46,621 nucleotides of DNA, taken from Bacilli bacterium (GTDB taxonomy: Bacteria > Bacillota_I > Bacilli_A > RFN20 > CAG-826). Location: positions 1-46,621 of the forward strand of contig JAGAHY010000121.1 of assembly GCA_017626815.1 (NCBI GenBank). The letters run 5' to 3'. Each line of letters opens with the position of its first letter. The stretch's first letter is position 1. The notes beneath the pieces are model-generated. The model saw only the letters and a program-made list of their open reading frames with translations, had not been told where the DNA came from and made no database searches. Shown here piece after piece: positions 2-13,948 of the stretch. The position numbers and the translations under genes were made by a program.

Positions 2-292
2 TACTTGACCTCCGAAAAAGGCCAGATCGAGCGTTTCGAAGAATTGCAATGGGGCCCCTCCAACCTTGCCGCCTCTGAATCCGATGCTGTCTTGGCCGCT
101 CCTCAGATCGCCGCTCTTGCGAAGCAGAACGTCTACGCCAAACCTCAGGGCCAATTCCCTAAGAAGTGGTGGGACAATGCCGGTGCTATCGGCTCTTCCA
201 TCCAGGCTCTTGGCAAAGATGGCGCTACCGAAACTGCGGTCCAAGGCATCCTTGACACCTATGCCGCTGGCTTAGACGATCTTCTTTCCTAA
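2..292 (+). CDS. Maltose/maltodextrin ABC transporter substrate-binding protein, C-terminal end (partial)
   Basis: This is the last 96 codons of an extracellular solute-binding protein whose beginning lies outside the window; the frame is open to the left edge, so the TTG at position 5 is not the true start. The residues AAPQIAALAKQNVYAKPQG followed by a Trp pair and a final helix resemble the C-terminal lobe of MalE-type (family 1) binding proteins. In the family the protein captures maltodextrins outside the membrane and delivers them to MalF/MalG. The genes directly downstream encode those permeases and the ATPase, which supports the assignment. A strong hairpin separates it from the permease genes. 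The substrate is inferred from the starch-degrading neighbours and could be another oligosaccharide. Confidence 0.75.
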   Translation, partial: YLTSEKGQIERFEELQWGPSNLAASESDAVLAAPQIAALAKQNVYAKPQGQFPKKWWDNAGAIGSSIQALGKDGATETAVQGILDTYAAGLDDLLS

Positions 293-406: not shown

Positions 407-1924
407 ATGGCGAGTGCTATGAGCCAATACGAATTGCTCCGCTATGGTAAAGCGAAGCGCTTCGGCTACAAATTCGTGCAATTTTTCAAAAGCCTTCCTC
501 GTCGCCTTCTGAATTTGTTGATCAAACTCGGGATTATCATCAAGAATCTCGTGTTCGGTATCGGCCGATTCTGCAAAGACGTCGTCATGACTTTCGTCCG
601 TGGGACATGGAAGACCCGTCTTACCTATGTCGTCATGGGCTTTGGAAACTTGGCACACAAGCAGTTCTTACGCGGCCTGCTCTTTTTAGCGTTTGAGGCC
701 GCCTTTATTTTCTACATGATCTTTGCTGGGGGATATTGGCTTAGTCAGTTGCCTACCCTTGGTACCGTCAAAGTCCACACCGAGACTCAAATCGTCGCCG
801 GCAAGGAAGTGCCTACCACCGTCTATGGTGATAACTCCTTCAAAATCTTGCTTTATGGCGTTTTGACGATCTTCTTCATCGTCGCCTTGGTTTTCACTTG
901 GTGGCTAAGCGTCAAGCAAAGCCGCACCTTGGACCAAATCGACGAGGACAAGAAGAAAATCGCGACCGATAAAGATGACCTCCGTGGCTTGGTCGACGCG
1001 AACTTCCACCGCACGATGCTCGCTTTGCCCCTCGTCGGCATGGTCGTCTTCACCGTCATCCCAATCATCTTCATGATTCTGGTCGCCTTCACTAACTTTG
1101 ACCTGAACCATAACCCACCCGCAGGTCTATTCACTTGGGTCGGATGGGACAACTTCGGTCAGCTCTTCACTTGGGGCGGTTCCAAATTCTCCGCAACTTT
1201 CGGTGAAATTCTCGTTTGGACGTTAATTTGGGCCTTCTTCGCGACCTTCACCAACTATTTCCTTGGCATGCTCGTCGCGTTGCTCATCAACAAGAAAGGC
1301 ATCAAATTCAAGAAAGGTTGGAGAACCATCCTCGTCTTGACCGTCACCATTCCGCAATTCATTTCCTTGCTTTACATCTCCAAGATGTTCGGCGAGCAGG
1401 GCATCATCAACAAAACCCTCTCCGATTGGGGCTGGATCTCCTCTCCGATTTATTTCTGGAAAGACCCGACTCTTGCGAAGATAACGGTCATTATCATCAA
1501 TATTTGGATCGGCATTCCTTACCTCATGTTGATGGTCACCGGTATCTTGATGAACATCCCCGCCGACTTATACGAATCCGCTAAGATCGACGGCGCGAGC
1601 CCGCTTCAGCAATACATGAAGATCACGCTTCCTTATATGCTATTCGTCACGGGCCCGTATCTGTTGACTTCCTTCACCGGCAACATGAATAACTTCAACG
1701 TTATCTACTTGCTGACCGGTGGCGGTCCGACCAACGTCCGTCTTTACAACTCTGCCGGTCAAACCAACTTGTTGATCACCTGGTTATACGCGACCACCGT
1801 CTCGGACAACCAGTACAACCTCGCCGCGGTTATCGGCATCATGGTCTTCATCGTTGTCGCGCTTATCTCGATGATCGTTTATAACCTTCTTCCGAGTAAC
1901 CGCAACGAAGAAGATCTCGCCTAA
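407..1924 (+). CDS. malF: Maltodextrin ABC transporter permease, MalF-type
   Basis: Inner-membrane permease of 505 aa, about the size of E. coli MalF (514 aa). A basic amphipathic N-terminus (residues 1-75) leads into membrane segments near 88-115, 146-168, 204-228, 266-294, 306-328, 358-382, 408-424 and 472-495. The ATPase-contact EAA loop is visible at about 389-410 (ESAKIDGASPLQQYMKITLP). The purine-rich stretch AAAAGGGAG a few bases upstream serves the ATG at 407; an ATG four codons further in is less well placed. It is followed after 15 nt by the MalG-type gene, with which it should form the translocation channel. Function is secure to the maltose/maltodextrin (CUT1) permease level; exact substrate is inferred. 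Confidence 0.85.
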   Translation: MASAMSQYELLRYGKAKRFGYKFVQFFKSLPRRLLNLLIKLGIIIKNLVFGIGRFCKDVVMTFVRGTWKTRLTYVVMGFGNLAHKQFLRGLLFLAFEAAFIFYMIFAGGYWLSQLPTLGTVKVHTETQIVAGKEVPTTVYGDNSFKILLYGVLTIFFIVALVFTWWLSVKQSRTLDQIDEDKKKIATDKDDLRGLVDANFHRTMLALPLVGMVVFTVIPIIFMILVAFTNFDLNHNPPAGLFTWVGWDNFGQLFTWGGSKFSATFGEILVWTLIWAFFATFTNYFLGMLVALLINKKGIKFKKGWRTILVLTVTIPQFISLLYISKMFGEQGIINKTLSDWGWISSPIYFWKDPTLAKITVIIINIWIGIPYLMLMVTGILMNIPADLYESAKIDGASPLQQYMKITLPYMLFVTGPYLLTSFTGNMNNFNVIYLLTGGGPTNVRLYNSAGQTNLLITWLYATTVSDNQYNLAAVIGIMVFIVVALISMIVYNLLPSNRNEEDLA

Positions 1925-1939
1925 TGGAGGAATATTACG

Positions 1940-2863
1940 ATGGCTAACAACGAAAATCCCAATCGTGATCTCACTCCGATGGAAAATCTAGAACGCGGCA
2001 AAGAGAAGCGGGGCATGGGCATCAAAACCCGCCGCCGCATCTCCAATACGATCGCCTATGTCGTCTTGATCCTGATTTCCATTATTTGGATCGCACCGTT
2101 CGTCTTCCTCATCTTCCAGTCCCTCGAAGTCTCTTCGACCGGCTGGAGCGCGCACGTCATCCCGAAGGCTTGGGGGTTCGATAACTATATCTACCTCTTC
2201 TCCGCGGAAGCCAACTTCAACCGTTGGTACTTCAATACCTTCGTCATCGCGTTGTTCTCCTGCATTGGCCAAACCCTCATGCAGATCATGATGGCCTACG
2301 TCTTATCGCGCTTCCGGTTCAAACTCCGTAAGCCCTTGATGAACTTCATGTTGATTCTCGGTATGTTCCCGGGCTTCCTCACGATGATCATTCTCTACAA
2401 CGTCTTGAAAGACCTCGGCCTCACCCAGGCCAACGCCGTTCCGGGCTTGATTCTTGTCTCCATCGCCTCCTCCGGTATGGGCTATTACGTCATCAAAGGT
2501 TTCTTCGACACCGTCTCGAAATCCCTTGACGAAGCGGCCCTCATCGATGGCGCGACCCGCGGACAAGTGTTCGTGAAGGTCATTCTCCCGCTGACCAAGC
2601 CAATCGTCATCTACACGATCTTGACTGCCTTCATGGCACCTTGGGGCGACTTCATCTTTGCCTCCTATATCGCGTTTGGCAGCTCGCAGGGCTACAACGT
2701 CGCCGTCGGTCTCTACCAATGGCTCACCGTCGAGCAGTTGCCGTACCATTACACCCATTTCTGCTCTGGTGGCGTGGTGGTCTCCGTTCCGGTCATCACC
2801 TTGTTCCTCATGTTGCAACGTTACTACGTCGAAGGCGTCACTGGCGGCGCCGTCAAAGGCTAA
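1940..2863 (+). CDS. malG: Maltodextrin ABC transporter permease, MalG-type
   Basis: Second permease of the importer, 307 aa. After a charged 35-residue N-terminus there are six predicted membrane segments, beginning with one at 38-60. The EAA loop lies at 197-217 (DEAALIDGATRGQVFVKVIL), the expected place for MalG-family proteins. The start has a GGAGG site (TGGAGGAATATTACGATG) 15 nt after the malF stop, and the ATPase gene follows after 18 nt, so these are one transcription unit. Family knowledge: MalF and MalG form the heterodimeric channel on which the ATPase dimer docks. Confidence 0.85.
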   Translation: MANNENPNRDLTPMENLERGKEKRGMGIKTRRRISNTIAYVVLILISIIWIAPFVFLIFQSLEVSSTGWSAHVIPKAWGFDNYIYLFSAEANFNRWYFNTFVIALFSCIGQTLMQIMMAYVLSRFRFKLRKPLMNFMLILGMFPGFLTMIILYNVLKDLGLTQANAVPGLILVSIASSGMGYYVIKGFFDTVSKSLDEAALIDGATRGQVFVKVILPLTKPIVIYTILTAFMAPWGDFIFASYIAFGSSQGYNVAVGLYQWLTVEQLPYHYTHFCSGGVVVSVPVITLFLMLQRYYVEGVTGGAVKG

Positions 2864-2881: not shown

Positions 2882-4150
2882 ATGGCTACTGTTGTTTTAA
2901 AGAACGTAAAGAAAATTTACCCCGGCAGCACCGAGCCTGCCGTTCATGACTTCAACCTCTCGATCGCCGACAAGGAATTCATCGTCTTCGTCGGTCCGTC
3001 TGGCTGCGGCAAATCGACCACCCTTCGTATGGTCGCCGGCTTGGAAGACATCTCCGAAGGCACCGTCGAAATCGACGGCGAAGTCGTCAACGACCTTCAA
3101 CCGAAGGACCGCGGCATCTCGATGGTCTTCCAAAACTACGCTTTGTACCCGCACTTAACCGTCTATGAGAACATGGCGTTCCCCCTTCGCTTGCTTCGCA
3201 ACCCGAAGATGAGCAATGACGAGATCTATGAGCGCGTCACCAACGCCGCCAAGATCCTCGGCATCACCCAATACCTCACCCGTAAGCCGAAGAACCTCTC
3301 CGGCGGTCAGCGTCAGCGCGTCGCCATCGGCCGCGCCATGGTCCGCGACTCCAAAGTCTTCTTGATGGACGAGCCTCTTTCCAACCTCGACGCCAAACTC
3401 CGTAACCAGATGCGCGCTGAGATCATCCTTCTCCGCCAACGTATCCAAACGACCTTCATTTACGTCACCCACGACCAGACCGAAGCTATGACCCTTGGCG
3501 ATCGTATCGTCATTATGAAAGACGGCTTCATCATGCAGGTTGGCTCCCCGACCGAAGTCTTCGACCGTCCGGGCAACCTCTTCGTCGCCGAATTCATCGG
3601 CGCCCCGAAGATGAACACCTTCATGGCCAAACTCGTCAAGGACGAGAAGGACTATCACGTCGAGTGCTTTGGCGAGAAGATCCCCGTCACTGGCGAAAAA
3701 GCCCGCGAACTCAGCGAAAAGGGCATCGGCACGCAGACCATCGTCCTCGGCATCCGTCCGGAACACATGGTCTTCTCCGAAGAACCCAAGCCTGGTTATA
3801 TTCCCGTCGAGGTCGTCGTCAACGAAATGATGGGCTCTGAGGTCCACCTCCACGTCACGACCCCCGAGGTCCCCGAAGGCGCTTACGACACCCTCACCGA
3901 AGCCGAAGCCCGCAGCCGCGACTTCGCCGATGAGCAGTTGTTGCTCCCCGGTGGCAAGAAGGAACTTATCATCCGCATCCAGACCATCAACCTCACCGAT
4001 AAGCAGCGCGCCGAGTTCGTCCCTGGCAAGAAACTCTATCTTTCCGCCGAATCCCGCGTCATGCATTTCTTCAACTACCAGAAGGGCAAACTCAAAACGA
4101 ACTTGCTCTATGGCCCTGGCGCCGAAGCGGAAGCCTCTCTGGCTAACTAG
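2882..4150 (+). CDS. Sugar ABC transporter ATP-binding protein, MalK/MsmX/UgpC type
   Basis: ATPase of 422 aa, longer than most MalK/MsmX proteins (about 370). Visible motifs: Walker A GPSGCGKST (38-46), Q-loop near 84, signature LSGGQRQR (139-146), Walker B VFLMDEP (159-165), D-loop SNLDAKL and the switch THD (196-198). The region after 240 is the regulatory/TOBE domain; an acidic insert around 320-350 explains the extra length. It ends in TAG and begins 18 nt after malG behind AAAGGAG. In Gram-positives such ATPases can energise several sugar importers, so it may also serve other systems. The specific name (malK, msmX or ugpC) cannot be decided from sequence alone. Confidence 0.88.
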   Translation: MATVVLKNVKKIYPGSTEPAVHDFNLSIADKEFIVFVGPSGCGKSTTLRMVAGLEDISEGTVEIDGEVVNDLQPKDRGISMVFQNYALYPHLTVYENMAFPLRLLRNPKMSNDEIYERVTNAAKILGITQYLTRKPKNLSGGQRQRVAIGRAMVRDSKVFLMDEPLSNLDAKLRNQMRAEIILLRQRIQTTFIYVTHDQTEAMTLGDRIVIMKDGFIMQVGSPTEVFDRPGNLFVAEFIGAPKMNTFMAKLVKDEKDYHVECFGEKIPVTGEKARELSEKGIGTQTIVLGIRPEHMVFSEEPKPGYIPVEVVVNEMMGSEVHLHVTTPEVPEGAYDTLTEAEARSRDFADEQLLLPGGKKELIIRIQTINLTDKQRAEFVPGKKLYLSAESRVMHFFNYQKGKLKTNLLYGPGAEAEASLAN

Positions 4151-4169: not shown

Positions 4170-4505
4170 ATGAAAAGAAACAAAATTGCCAAATCCAAGA
4201 TGGCAACGATAATGATGTTCGTTTTCCTTGCCTTGTTCCTCATTCTCTTCATCGTCTTCTTCAATGTGGCGGATGGCTTCAAATCCTCCTATTCCGCATT
4301 GAAAGTCGAACTCGCCGGCAACGCGACCTCCTTGGTCGACAAGCTCCGGATCCGTTCGGAAATGTCCCATTTGAACCAACAATACGAGCTCTTCGCCGTG
4401 CTCTCCTACGTGTTCTCGATCCTCTCGATCGCCGCGTTGGGCATCGGCCTCGCCCTCACGGACAAGTTCAAAACGCTTGAAGAGAAAGCCGCTGAAAACG
4501 CTTAA
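4170..4505 (+). CDS. Small membrane protein at the end of the maltodextrin operon
   Basis: A 111-aa protein I do not recognise. It has a basic N-terminus and two hydrophobic segments: about 11-35 (MATIMMFVFLALFLILFIVF, ending before ADGFKSS) and about 70-92. The polar section between contains Lys/Glu/Asn residues, and the C-terminus is charged. A good site (TAGGAGGGCAACATCATG) lies 19 nt after the ATPase stop, so it is translated as part of the importer operon, and an intrinsic terminator follows it. The context suggests an accessory role in sugar uptake, but nothing in the sequence shows what it does. Confidence 0.6.
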   Translation: MKRNKIAKSKMATIMMFVFLALFLILFIVFFNVADGFKSSYSALKVELAGNATSLVDKLRIRSEMSHLNQQYELFAVLSYVFSILSIAALGIGLALTDKFKTLEEKAAENA

Positions 4506-8620: not shown

Positions 8621-10750
8621 ATGAAGAAAAAGATTCTCTTGCTATCGTCCGCTCTGATGCTCGCTTCATGCGGTGGTTCGACGTCTGCATCAACCGCCAC
8701 AAGCGGCCACTCAAGCGGATTATCCACATCCGAAACGTCATCGTCGGAAGCATCTTCTTCCAGCGAAACTTCCGCTTCCGAATCCGCGCCTTCTTATTCG
8801 CAGAGGACTTACGAAGACACCGAATGGACGCTAAAGGCCAACAAACCCAGCAAGGCCATCGCTAAAGACTTCGCCTTTGGCGTCGACGTCTCCTCTTTGA
8901 AAGAAGTCGAGGAAGGCGGCGGCGTCTTCTATGGCGAAGACGGCAACAAAGCCGATTGCTACCAGATTTTGGCCGATGGCGGCGCCAATTACGCCCGCAT
9001 CCGCCTCTGGAACGATCCTTATGACGGCAACGGCGCCCGCTATGGCGGTGGCACCAACGATATCCAAACCGATATCGAGCTCGCTAAACGCGCCCAAGCG
9101 GCTGGCTTGCAGATCCTCATCGACTTCCATTACAGCGACTCTTGGGTCGACCCAGGCAAATTCTGGGCCCCGAAGGCCTGGAAGGGGATGACTTACGAGG
9201 AGAAAGTCGTCAAATTAGGCAAATTCACCAAAGAAAGCCTCCAAGCCTTCAAAGACGCGGGCGTCACCGTCCACGCCATCCAAATCGGCAACGAGATCAA
9301 TCCGGGCATCGCCGGCATCAAATCCAGCAACTATCAGCGCATCGCGGGCTTCTTCACCGAGGCCATCGAAGCCGCCCATAGCGTCTTCCCGTATTGCAAG
9401 ACCATCGCCCATTATACCAACGTCAATAACCCCGCCATCATCTTCACTTGGCTCGGCTACTTAGAGAAATATAACGCCATGCCCGATATCGTCGGCGTGT
9501 CGTATTATCCCTTCTGGCACGGCGGCCTCGATAACCTCCAGTATGTCTTAGACAAGATCGCGACCGACTTCAAAGTCGACGTCATGGTCATGGAGACTTC
9601 TTGGGGCTTCACCGATGAGGAAGCGCCTTTCTGCAACAACCAGTTCAACTCCGAGACCTTAGGCAAGGCCGGCGGCTATGCCACTTCGCCCCAAGCCCAG
9701 GTCACCGTCGTCGCCGATATCGTCGACGTCCTCTCCAAGGTCCCCGATGGCCATGGTAAGGGCATCTTCTATTGGGAACCTGCGTGGCTGCCCAACCAAA
9801 ATTCCGGTTGGATCACGCAACAAGGCGCCTACTATAACGACAAAGGCGTCGATTGGGTCGGCAAAATCACCAAGGAGCAATTAGACGAGCTCTATGACCC
9901 CGATTATTATGGATGGTCGAGCTGGGCCAACCAGGCGTGGTTCGATTATGAAGGCCATGCGCTTCCTAGCGTCTCCACGTACCGTCACATCATCGTCGGC
10001 GACCATCAGGCCGAGGAAGTCTATGAGGGCCTCCTCAAGTCCGAATCCGACATGATCCTCAATATCTCCGAGGAATGGTCGATGCCGGAAACCATCCCCG
10101 CGGTCACCAACCTTGGCGCCTACCGCCAAGTCACCGTCGACTGGAACGCGGAAGAAGTGGCGGCCATCACCAACCCCGGCTATTACACCGTCCACGGCAC
10201 CGCCGAAGGATTCGAATACGTAGCCCACATCACGGCCGAGAAGAACTTCATCAAAGACCCCGGCTTCGAACGTCAGGGCTGCACGACCGAATCCCCCATC
10301 GTGGCGCCATGGCAAGTCGAAACGACCACCAAATACAAAGACTTCGGCGATGTCCATATCGAAGCGAAGTCCGAACTTGGCGAAAAAGGCAACCAATACC
10401 TCCACTGGTACAGCAACGATGACATCAAGTTCTCCGTCTATCAGGGACTTGGAACTGTCCCCGCGGGCAACTATAACTTCGGCTTCACGATGCTCTCTAG
10501 CTACTTTGACGCGGGCGGAACCGACGGCAAAGTCACCTCCGGTTCCCTCTGGTATAGCGTCAACGGCGAGAAGTTCCCGCTCGACATCCGGGAAGAATTC
10601 GCCGGCTATGGCGTCGGCGCCCACCTCGTCGCCGCGCCGATGGTCACCTTGGAAGCGGACGCCGAGATTGTCATCGGCTTCGACATGGAAGGCACCAAAG
10701 GCGTTTGGGGCCACGCGGACGACTTCTATTTCTCCGCCGTACTTGAATAA
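8621..10750 (+). CDS. Lipoprotein arabinogalactan endo-beta-1,4-galactanase (GH53)
   Basis: A 709-aa surface lipoprotein predicted to hydrolyse beta-1,4-galactan side chains of pectin. A signal peptide with lipobox LASC (Cys17) and a Ser/Glu/Thr linker (about 20-55) precede a GH53 barrel (about 72-430). Family motifs include YARIRLWNDPYD, GGTNDI and IDFHYSDSWVDPG. The acid/base is Glu225 in IGNEINPG and the nucleophile Glu325 in VMETSWGF. After the barrel comes a Big_4-like module (about 480-540; YRQVTVDWN ... GYYTVHGTAEG) and a C-terminal beta-rich module (about 545-709) that looks like a carbohydrate-binding jelly roll. The start follows AAGGAAATATACA. It heads a four-gene operon with a second, cytoplasmic GH53. 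Confidence 0.9.
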   Translation: MKKKILLLSSALMLASCGGSTSASTATSGHSSGLSTSETSSSEASSSSETSASESAPSYSQRTYEDTEWTLKANKPSKAIAKDFAFGVDVSSLKEVEEGGGVFYGEDGNKADCYQILADGGANYARIRLWNDPYDGNGARYGGGTNDIQTDIELAKRAQAAGLQILIDFHYSDSWVDPGKFWAPKAWKGMTYEEKVVKLGKFTKESLQAFKDAGVTVHAIQIGNEINPGIAGIKSSNYQRIAGFFTEAIEAAHSVFPYCKTIAHYTNVNNPAIIFTWLGYLEKYNAMPDIVGVSYYPFWHGGLDNLQYVLDKIATDFKVDVMVMETSWGFTDEEAPFCNNQFNSETLGKAGGYATSPQAQVTVVADIVDVLSKVPDGHGKGIFYWEPAWLPNQNSGWITQQGAYYNDKGVDWVGKITKEQLDELYDPDYYGWSSWANQAWFDYEGHALPSVSTYRHIIVGDHQAEEVYEGLLKSESDMILNISEEWSMPETIPAVTNLGAYRQVTVDWNAEEVAAITNPGYYTVHGTAEGFEYVAHITAEKNFIKDPGFERQGCTTESPIVAPWQVETTTKYKDFGDVHIEAKSELGEKGNQYLHWYSNDDIKFSVYQGLGTVPAGNYNFGFTMLSSYFDAGGTDGKVTSGSLWYSVNGEKFPLDIREEFAGYGVGAHLVAAPMVTLEADAEIVIGFDMEGTKGVWGHADDFYFSAVLE

Positions 10751-10767
10751 CGGATATCATCACAACC

Positions 10768-12600
10768 ATGGAAAACGAATTTATCTTAACGCTCATCCAC
10801 CGGCCCGAAATGGCGCCGGAATACGCGCAAAAAACCACTCAGGCCGGGCAGGCGGATGACCTCGCCTCGACCGCGCTTCTCGACGAATCGCTCTCGATCT
10901 TCCTCTATCAGCAGGAACAAGCCCATAAACGCGGCTTAAAGACGACCATCGAGATGACCTACGCCTCGCTTTTCTCCGACGTCGTCGTCGGTTTGGCGAA
11001 GCAGCACCACAAGGAATTCGGCGACGAAATCGGCCTTTCCTTGCTCGGTCTTCCCTGCGAGCAGTTCTACGAGAAATACAAAACCAAGGATTTCTGCATC
11101 TGGATGTTCTCCAATGAGGACAAGGAAGCGATCGTCGACGATTGCTTCTCCCTCTTCTATGAGAAGTTCGGCTTCTATCCCGAATCCACCGGCTCCTATT
11201 ATCTCGACGCCTACACCATTAACTACATCAAGAAGAAATACCCGATGGTCAAATGCGCCGTCGCGACATGCTGGGAAGAAGGGGTCAAGTGCTACCACAC
11301 GACCAACAATTCCTGGTATACCTTCATCGACGGCGGCCCCTGGGCCCCATGGATCCCGTCCAAAGTCAATTCCTGCCTCCCCGCGGACAGCAAGGAAGAC
11401 GACTCCGGCATCGTCGCCATCCCGCACCTTAGCCGCGACCTTATGGCGTGCTTCGATGGCAATGGCTCCAACTTCGGCACCCATCCCCAAAACGTCCTCC
11501 GCGGCATGATCTACAAGGACAACGAACTCCCATACTTGTTCAACCTTATCGACATGTACCGCCTCCAGGGCAAATACAATAACGGAAACGCCTACAACAT
11601 GATGTTCGTCGGCCCGGGCTGGCTCAACAAAGCCGGGCGCTGGGAACAACCCTATGAATTACTCAAGAAATCCTATGAGGACGGCATGGAATACTACGCC
11701 AAGCTCAAGAGGGAAGGCAAGCTCATCGACATGACGATGTCCGAATACGCCGACCATTACCGGCAGCGTCATCCTTCTTACATGGAACCGGAAGTGGCCT
11801 TATGGAAAGACGTCCTCTATGGTTCCGACAAGCAGTATTTCTGGTACTATGACCCGTTCTACCGCGTCTGTCTCGACTTCAACCAAGGCGGCGCCATGAT
11901 CTGCCTTAACCCCTACGTCAGCAAACTCGACTTGCCCGTCGGCATCGGCACCGGCAATGCCTATAATTGCTCCTATCCTTATATCATCCAAGCCAATTAC
12001 CGCGCGGGTTACTTCACCCATTACGCCGGGCAAGGCACCCTTAAGTCCTGCATTATCCGTTATGGCAAAGAAGAAGTGGACCTCGCCTTGGAACGCACGA
12101 TGGCTTCCTACTCCAAAGTTGGTGAGGACATCCTGCTGACGACCAACCCGATGAAAGTCGAATTCTCCGACTTCTCCATCGAGGTCGTCTCCAAATACCT
12201 CTTCAAGAAGGGGACGGGCGAAATCGTTACCACCCGCGAGGTCAAAGGCGACCTTGGCGGACGCACCATCGAACTCGAGGATTACCTCGTCGGCTGCTAT
12301 GGCATCGACGAATATAGCGAAGACATGACCGGCGTCACCCTCGAGGCGGATGATGGCAAAAGCAAAGACGTCATCGAATATAAATACAAATGCCGTAACG
12401 CGGAGCGCCTTGGCGCGACCGCCAGGGCCATCGTCCCGCAGGTCAACACCATCGTCGAGATGGGCAGCGAGGATCCCGCCTCTATTGGCCGCATCGAGGA
12501 AGGCATCGCCTTCTCGCCGATGTTCCGCCTCTCCAACAAGAAAAAACTCAACGCATCAGGAGAATTCACCACATGGCTCAAGGTAAAAAAGGTAAATTAA
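10768..12600 (+). CDS. Unrecognised 610-aa cytoplasmic protein in galactan operon
   Basis: I do not recognise a named family. There is no signal peptide or membrane segment, so it should be cytoplasmic. Residues about 1-350 look like an alpha/beta (barrel-type) enzyme domain, with aromatic and acidic blocks such as FGFYPESTGSYYLDAY (near 138) and a proline/tryptophan block GGPWAPWIPSKVNSCLPA (near 190), which loosely recalls glycosidase/deacetylase-type barrels. The section after about 350 is beta-rich. It starts 17 nt after the GH53 stop without a clear ribosome site, and its last 28 bases overlap the next gene. Position between two galactanases suggests work on galacto-oligosaccharides (glycosidase, phosphorylase or deacetylase); none of these is shown by the sequence. 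Confidence 0.6.
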   Translation: MENEFILTLIHRPEMAPEYAQKTTQAGQADDLASTALLDESLSIFLYQQEQAHKRGLKTTIEMTYASLFSDVVVGLAKQHHKEFGDEIGLSLLGLPCEQFYEKYKTKDFCIWMFSNEDKEAIVDDCFSLFYEKFGFYPESTGSYYLDAYTINYIKKKYPMVKCAVATCWEEGVKCYHTTNNSWYTFIDGGPWAPWIPSKVNSCLPADSKEDDSGIVAIPHLSRDLMACFDGNGSNFGTHPQNVLRGMIYKDNELPYLFNLIDMYRLQGKYNNGNAYNMMFVGPGWLNKAGRWEQPYELLKKSYEDGMEYYAKLKREGKLIDMTMSEYADHYRQRHPSYMEPEVALWKDVLYGSDKQYFWYYDPFYRVCLDFNQGGAMICLNPYVSKLDLPVGIGTGNAYNCSYPYIIQANYRAGYFTHYAGQGTLKSCIIRYGKEEVDLALERTMASYSKVGEDILLTTNPMKVEFSDFSIEVVSKYLFKKGTGEIVTTREVKGDLGGRTIELEDYLVGCYGIDEYSEDMTGVTLEADDGKSKDVIEYKYKCRNAERLGATARAIVPQVNTIVEMGSEDPASIGRIEEGIAFSPMFRLSNKKKLNASGEFTTWLKVKKVN

Positions 12601-12833
12601 ACTACCGTTGCCCGCAGTGCTTTAACCGCGATATCGACATCGACCTCTTCTTCGACGAGGAGAAGAACGAATATTATTGCCTCCGTTGCTGCTTCCGTGG
12701 CGACGAGGCCAAAGTCAAGGAATGGAACGAGACCATCAAACTCAAATATGGCCACGTCATGGACCGTCTCACCAGTTTAGGTGAGGATAATGAGCCCGCG
12801 ACCTACCACGCCTACAAGAAGGGAGAGTTCTAG
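12573..12833 (+). CDS. Small zinc-ribbon protein in galactan operon
   Basis: An 86-aa protein with two cysteine knuckles, CPQC (13-16) and CLRCC (36-40), spaced as in a zinc ribbon, followed by a charged helical tail. The start at 12573 lies inside the end of the preceding gene; its site AGGAGA (in ATCAGGAGAATTCACC) is also within that gene, which argues for translational coupling and against a chance frame. The following GTG start comes 2 nt after its TAG. Zinc ribbons of this size bind nucleic acid or protein. Here it might be a regulator or partner of the neighbouring enzymes, but this is only inference from position. Confidence 0.65.
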   Translation: MAQGKKGKLNYRCPQCFNRDIDIDLFFDEEKNEYYCLRCCFRGDEAKVKEWNETIKLKYGHVMDRLTSLGEDNEPATYHAYKKGEF

Positions 12834-12835
12834 TC

Positions 12836-13948
12836 GTGCGCCTTGGCATCGATGCCTCCACTTTGGACCAATTGGAGAAATACGATCCCCATTTCTATTA
12901 CGAGGGGAAGGAAATCGAGCCGTTAAGCTTCCTTCATGAGCATAATGGCATCGGTTTGCTCCGCCTCCGTCTCTGGCTCGACCCTTACGATGAGCAAGGC
13001 GTTCCCTATGGCGCGGGCACCAACGACTTCGATTGTTTCTTACGTTTAGCTAAGCGCGGCAACGCCGCCGGCTACAAAATCCTCCTCGATTTCCATTATT
13101 CGGATTTCTGGGTCGACCCCGCCAAGCAGACCATGCCCAAAGCCTGGAGGGGCAAAACCCTCGAGGAAGTGGTGGACGCCCTCTATGAATATACCCGCGA
13201 CACCCTCCTTCGCGTCAAAGCGGAGGGGATAGAGCTCGCGGGCATCCAAGTCGGCAACGAAATCACCCATGGCATGTGCTGGCCGTTAGGCAAACTTAAC
13301 TATGACGCGGATAACCGTAAGATCGCCAAATTCGAGAATCTCGCGTTGCTGCTTAAAGCCGGCACCAAAGCTTGCAAAGAAGTCTTCCCCGACGTCAAAA
13401 CCGTCATCCATCTCGAGCATTCCTGCTCGGTTGAGATGCAAGAACACTGGTTCCGCAGCATCATCGACCTCGGCGTCGAATTCGACGTCATCGGCGAATC
13501 CTATTATTCTTACTGGCATGGCTCGTTGGAGGAACTCGCGGCCAATCTCGATAATCTCCACAAAAAGTTCGGTAAAGAACTTTGGATCGTCGAGCTAGGC
13601 TACGCTTATGAACCGGCGAGACGCGACGATAAAGAAGGACTAGGGAACCTCATTGATGAGCGTTTCCGCGCCACCCATGACCTCAAGTTCGCCCCATATC
13701 CCTTCACCCAGCAAGGCCAATATGACTTCCTCCGTCATTTAATCCGTGTCTGTGCCGAGCATCACGTGGAACAAATGTATTATTGGGAGCCCTTATGGCT
13801 GCCACTTCCAAATTGCGGTTGGGCGGATTTGCCAGGCCAAGCCTACATCAACGAACATGGCGACCCCCAAACAGACGAATGGGCCAATGAAACGCTCTTC
13901 GATAGCAAAGGTAACGCCACCCTCGGACTGGACGCTTATAAGCTATAA
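12836..13948 (+). CDS. Cytoplasmic GH53 endo-beta-1,4-galactanase
   Basis: A 370-aa GH53 enzyme with no signal peptide, linker or accessory module, so it appears cytoplasmic. It starts at a GTG behind AAGGGAGAG, 2 nt after the zinc-ribbon stop. Family motifs parallel those of the lipoprotein paralogue: RLRLWLDPYDEQG, GAGTNDF, LDFHYSDFWVDPA, acid/base Glu142 in VGNEITHG, nucleophile Glu253 in IVELGYAYE, and YYWEPLWLP. GH53 enzymes are normally secreted, so an intracellular version suggests degradation of imported galacto-oligosaccharides. It is the last gene of the operon, with a terminator just downstream. Assignment to GH53 is firm; substrate size and location are inferred. Confidence 0.85.
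   Translation: MRLGIDASTLDQLEKYDPHFYYEGKEIEPLSFLHEHNGIGLLRLRLWLDPYDEQGVPYGAGTNDFDCFLRLAKRGNAAGYKILLDFHYSDFWVDPAKQTMPKAWRGKTLEEVVDALYEYTRDTLLRVKAEGIELAGIQVGNEITHGMCWPLGKLNYDADNRKIAKFENLALLLKAGTKACKEVFPDVKTVIHLEHSCSVEMQEHWFRSIIDLGVEFDVIGESYYSYWHGSLEELAANLDNLHKKFGKELWIVELGYAYEPARRDDKEGLGNLIDERFRATHDLKFAPYPFTQQGQYDFLRHLIRVCAEHHVEQMYYWEPLWLPLPNCGWADLPGQAYINEHGDPQTDEWANETLFDSKGNATLGLDAYKL

Follow-up and report, generated by a model that had tools for sequence, protein, structure and literature searches.

X610, a protein family of GH53 galactanase loci, and its overlapping zinc-ribbon-like partner ZR: a candidate two-subunit carbohydrate enzyme of gut and rumen bacteria

The window, meaning the whole 46,621-nucleotide stretch of Bacilli DNA analysed here, begins with the forward-strand genes of an ABC importer: a solute-binding protein gene cut by the window edge (2..292), two sugar permease genes encoding 505 and 307 residues (407..1924 and 1940..2863) and the gene of an MsmK-type ATPase of 422 residues (2882..4150), each assigned from its open reading frame and from cluster membership across loci. 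A 111-aa ORF lies 3' of the ATPase gene (4170-4505) and is kept in four loci (cluster 24). Further along the same strand, a 610-residue, predicted cytoplasmic protein (henceforth X610) is encoded by an ATG-start ORF at 10768..12600. The original prediction had set this gene between two galactanases, close behind the first and overlapping downstream. Both flanking genes are indeed GH53 by Pfam PF07745: a lipoprotein-type endo-beta-1,4-galactanase of 709 residues upstream (8621..10750, E 6.7e-98), whose stop is separated from the X610 start by 17 nt, and a cytoplasmic GH53 protein of 370 residues with a GTG start downstream (12836..13948, E 4.6e-86). The downstream overlap is also real, but its partner is not the second galactanase, which starts only at 12836; it is an 86-aa ORF at 12573..12833 (henceforth ZR). 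A hydrophobic N-terminal stretch is present in 0 of 81 X610 relatives, in agreement with the predicted lack of a signal peptide.

Relatives of X610 were confirmed by tblastn at no fewer than 576 loci in genome contigs, of which we kept 80 that are full length with 59-88% identity, their hosts being Bacilli, Lachnospiraceae, Oscillospiraceae, Clostridium and Blautia. Because of this number of confirmed loci and the full-length identity among the kept relatives, a chance ORF is excluded, and the family spans hundreds of gut and rumen bacteria. Column identity averages 76% in the alignment of 81 sequences, whose invariant stretches include DGGPWxPWIPS, IPHLSRD and C[FY]DGNGSNFGTHPQNV. The protein had been said to belong to no nameable family, and it is undescribed in the family libraries searched: X610 has no significant match in Pfam, NCBIfam or PHROGs, none of 28 members has a convincing family match in Pfam, and no profile match tied X610 to a characterised family of unrelated role. 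A Pfam DUF596 match (E 0.08 over 31 residues) lies under the cut-off of that family, recurs in only two of the 28 members and was rejected. A search of PDB sequences returned chance Kunitz matches only for the single protein and nothing for a 28-sequence profile, and a scan of viral contigs found no relatives. Run against genomes around one L. phytofermentans genome (198 from its class, 299 from its phylum), the X610 profile recovered close members only. We met no description of X610 in passages from studies of how Clostridium phytofermentans, Roseburia and Butyrivibrio use galactan.

ZR is new here. Its reading frame is -1 with respect to X610, it shares 28 nt with the 3' end of that gene, and it encodes a zinc-ribbon-like protein of the CxxC...CxxC type, with the consensus MaQ..KG.LNyRCP.CF.RD.D.D.FyD..k.EyyC.RC...G.E and four conserved cysteines. 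By sequence reading, an AGGAG Shine-Dalgarno-like motif (12558..12562, forward strand) lies within X610, 10 nt 5' of the ZR ATG. Family libraries gave no significant match for ZR, the nearest, all weak, being zinc-finger families and a phage DNA primase (PHROG 47, E 0.011). All 100 X610 loci with enough downstream DNA carry ZR in the same frame with an overlap of exactly 28 nt, GH53-less lineages included; these loci include same or near-identical genomes and amount to 86 distinct sequences at the overlap site. The start codon is ATG in 98 of the 100, and the Shine-Dalgarno-like motif precedes ZR in 82 of the 86 distinct loci, against a background of 11-12%. Some constancy of an overlap is to be expected wherever two frames under constraint use the same bases, so constancy alone does not prove function. 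Stronger evidence is the perfect pairing of the two genes across lineages: among 61 related genomes, each of the 16 that have X610 has a single ZR, and the others have none. The strictest partner of X610 is ZR rather than a galactanase, and the two proteins probably make up an obligate pair.

GH53 is nevertheless a strong associate. In the same 61 genomes, which surround the species of the window, GH53 occurs in 19, all 16 X610 genomes fall within these 19, and X610 is found in 0 of the 42 GH53-less genomes (Fisher p 4.8e-12, ignoring shared ancestry), which is the association with GH53 among relatives that a conserved-neighbour check had been proposed to reveal. GH53 was found in 66 of 81 X610 loci, many of which end early, and in Lachnospiraceae the genes usually run LacI regulator, solute-binding protein, permease, permease, X610 and GH53. 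The link is not absolute, however, and the original interpretation is borne out in part: C. sardiniense, C. nigeriense, C. tertium and one Blautia MAG (G257, G260, G261 and G262), all outside the 61 genomes, carry X610 with no GH53 anywhere in the genome. A 640-aa protein (cluster 27) precedes X610 in C. nigeriense, C. tertium and a further Clostridium, where it lies between the permeases and X610 (L050:6056-7978, L055:6056-7978 and also L076). The C. nigeriense protein (L050) has no Pfam or NCBIfam match and is homologous (E 6.4e-117) to BACCELL_00875, a PL27 L-rhamnose-alpha-1,4-D-glucuronate lyase whose substrate is gum arabic (PMC8377490). The protein encoded ahead of X610 in C. sardiniense has 1680 residues and matches GH39 weakly; in Blautia GH20C-type genes take this place, and one Blautia locus has GH36 and GH31 nearby. 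Since X610 follows a PL27-like lyase or a GH20C gene in most GH53-less genomes, its substrate would not be pectic beta-1,4-galactan only; the common theme of its loci may be galactose-containing glycans. At another locus an inositol-monophosphatase-like gene (PF00459) lies 3' of X610 (L041:6830-7591), and a gene of the same cluster (23) takes that position in L073, L034 and L039 as well.

The domain organization of X610 was derived from two AlphaFold2 models, built from 28 and 81 sequences (mean pLDDT 81.2 and 81.7, pTM 0.86 for both), together with fold matches and the 81-sequence alignment. The layout that had been anticipated from the sequence, an alpha/beta domain and then a beta-rich part, appears in both models as an N-terminal (beta/alpha) barrel (about residues 1-340) and a C-terminal beta-sandwich (about 340-610). 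The top solved-structure match of both is 3LM3 (Z 30.5 and 27.6 over 381 and 362 residues, rmsd 3.3 and 3.2). The barrel matches CE4-type deacetylases (Z about 19-20 over 251-264 residues) and the GH57 (beta/alpha)7 barrel (Z about 18 over about 255 residues, rmsd 3.2-4.3), and the sandwich matches galactose mutarotases (Z about 16). Thus the fold search agrees with the original view that X610 is built like carbohydrate enzymes, with a barrel of the deacetylase/GH57 type and a mutarotase-like sandwich. On these models X610 would share a fold group with DUF3863, CE4 and GH57.

Catalysis in X610 would take place at the mouth of the barrel, where Asp147, at the end of strand 4, and Asp224, at the end of strand 6, are the lead candidates for catalytic residues. 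At strand 4, where GH57 holds its nucleophile Glu by motif reading, X610 carries the stretch STGSYxxDA with the invariant Asp147. Both aspartates are kept in a distant Parabacteroides relative, and in DUF3863 Asp224 is kept whereas Asp147 is replaced by Ser, although the alignments are uncertain at such distances. The loops worst modelled by AlphaFold2 (171-191, 230-247 and 411-421), which the 81-sequence model does not resolve either, fall in the most conserved stretches of the protein (about 96% against 87% for the barrel). Low model quality combined with top conservation suggests that a partner or ligand is missing from the models, and ZR may be the protein that completes or stabilises these active-site loops.

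Gut and rumen Firmicutes use pectic galactan, a dietary fibre. We consider it most likely that X610 and ZR form one two-subunit cytoplasmic carbohydrate enzyme, a complex that we infer from their pairing, and we tentatively favour cytoplasmic glycosidic cleavage of imported beta-galactosyl oligosaccharides as its reaction. By this scheme GH53 would cut beta-1,4-galactan at the cell surface, the ABC transporter would bring in the galacto-oligosaccharides, and X610-ZR, most likely as an exo-acting glycosidase, would take galactosyl units off them inside the cell, while the cytoplasmic GH53 would assist by cutting down longer chains; where a lineage lacks GH53, the substrate of X610-ZR would be galactosyl units released from other glycans. 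The activity on galacto-oligosaccharides that the original prediction suggested for X610 is in this respect plausible. GH42 was found in 0 of 18 X610-bearing genomes of the window's order, and none of GH42, GH2_C, GH35 and GH1 was found in the X610-bearing genome G172, which is 96% complete, or likewise in G256 and G612; such genomes fit a role of X610 in turning imported galacto-oligosaccharides into galactose. X610 would not always be the missing beta-galactosidase, however, since GH42 is also present at 19 of 97 X610 loci and other genomes have GH2 or GH1 candidates, among them the window's own with a LacZ-like GH2 and a GH1. What counts against a beta-galactoside role is that the known glycosidases on this barrel, GH57 and GH38, cleave alpha bonds, whereas beta-galactan is beta-linked. 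In a bolder form of the proposal, which we regard as conceivable and rather doubtful, X610-ZR would be the founder of a new class of carbohydrate-active enzyme, in which a barrel of the deacetylase fold and a zinc-ribbon subunit, encoded with a fixed 28-nt overlap, form an obligate heteromer and cleave beta-galactosides by a mechanism unused in the known families of this fold.

Alternatively, X610-ZR may act as a debranching glycosidase, stripping imported galacto-oligosaccharides of alpha-linked decorations (arabinose, galactose, rhamnose or similar) by a retaining mechanism like that of GH57 and GH38. This alternative, possible though on balance doubtful, draws on the GH57-like barrel, whose members act on alpha bonds, on the Clostridium loci in which X610 goes with a protein homologous to the PL27 enzyme, itself active on decorated arabinogalactan, on the Blautia locus with GH36 and GH31, and on the GH42 genes already at many X610 loci. 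It leaves unexplained the genomes that have X610 and GH53 but none of the four beta-galactosidase families named above, and no arabinan or other debranching gene is consistently near X610.

Strict conservation of metal- and thiol-type side chains raises a different alternative. Cys97, Cys110, Cys168 and Cys228 as well as His53, His220, His239 and His418 of X610 are invariant in 81 of 81 sequences, which, with the four conserved cysteines of ZR, would be in keeping with a metal- or cysteine-dependent lyase, isomerase, epimerase or redox enzyme of galactoside catabolism, and no glycosidase, to which ZR gives a metal site or electrons. We judge this unlikely: Cys168 alone of the invariant cysteines is kept in the Parabacteroides relative, and no cofactor motif was recognised. 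The barrel's resemblance to CE4-type proteins (Z about 20) could likewise point to CE4-like deacetylation of acetylated pectic galacto-oligosaccharides, yet the FDD motif is found in 0 of 81 X610 sequences, the CE4-type H[STN]x1-3H pattern in only 10 of 81 with no conserved His pair at CE4 spacing, and the CE4 profile PF01522 has no X610 match at E up to 10, so that such an activity seems very improbable. Finally, the -1 frame of ZR and an in-frame A_AAA_AAG site read in the window's overlap would allow -1 ribosomal frameshifting to add ZR to the C-terminus of X610 in place of a separate protein, an idea we hold to be far-fetched because the site occurs in only 15 of the 86 distinct loci and ZR nearly always has its own Shine-Dalgarno-like motif and ATG start.

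Should X610-ZR prove to be a cytoplasmic galacto-oligosaccharide enzyme, as we tentatively propose, a step that apparently lacks a named enzyme in some genomes would gain one, and a family found in hundreds of species would become annotatable. It would be unusual for a carbohydrate enzyme to depend on a zinc-ribbon partner and for the overlap of their genes to stay at exactly 28 nt throughout Bacilli and Clostridia; and if ZR is needed, assays of X610 alone could fail without the partner.

How X610 compares with known families can be followed from the fold matches to the motifs. GH57 enzymes, which have retaining alpha-glycosidase or glucanotransferase activity, have the same barrel (1K1X and the amylopullulanases) at about 10% identity. 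The GH57 4-alpha-glucanotransferase 1K1X aligns with both domains of X610, but the domain arrangement differs (rmsd 18.6 and 19.0). The GH57 profile PF03065 matches 0 of 28 X610 members at E up to 10, and GH57 motifs 1 (HxHxP) and 3 (WLxE, with the catalytic Glu) are in 0 of 81 sequences, as is the HxDxGW zinc/nucleophile motif of GH38. CE4 polysaccharide deacetylases have a barrel like that of X610, but their FDD and His-pair motifs are not conserved features in it. The best fold match is the DUF3863/DUF3864 protein of Parabacteroides distasonis (PF12979/PF12980; 3LM3), which is 14-15% identical and, at 477 aa, much shorter than X610, leaving room for little of the C-terminal sandwich. The DUF3863 profile PF12979 matches 0 of 28 X610 members at E up to 10, and a profile comparison of X610 with a DUF3863 member is not significant (probability 6.8%, E 0.005). 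A DUF3863 search gave 0 matches in 100 and 249 Bacillota genomes but carries no weight, the controls being equally silent. Because the sequence features tested for DUF3863, CE4 and GH57 are not borne out in X610, we file it in none of the three.

A further comparison comes from a P. distasonis plasmid that encodes a distant homologue of X610 (31% over 131 aa by tblastn). This Bacteroidota protein, WP_172986044.1 (P0001, L104:14587-16287), aligns with X610 over 370 columns by hhalign (probability 95.8%, E 6.5e-9), is about 24-26% identical and keeps Asp147, Asp224, Asp230 and Trp285. Unlike X610, it has a hydrophobic, lipoprotein-like N-terminus, and its next gene is not ZR but a DUF3863 gene. 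It belongs to a plasmid PUL (a SusC/SusD sugar-uptake locus) in which the X610 relative is directly followed by the DUF3863 protein, nearly identical to PDB 3LM3, and then by two GH2 genes; this arrangement behind SusC/SusD (L104:14587-17710) also gives a context for the function of 3LM3. Two independent leads, the predicted fold of X610 and the gene neighbourhood of its distant Parabacteroides relative, thus point to the DUF3863 group.
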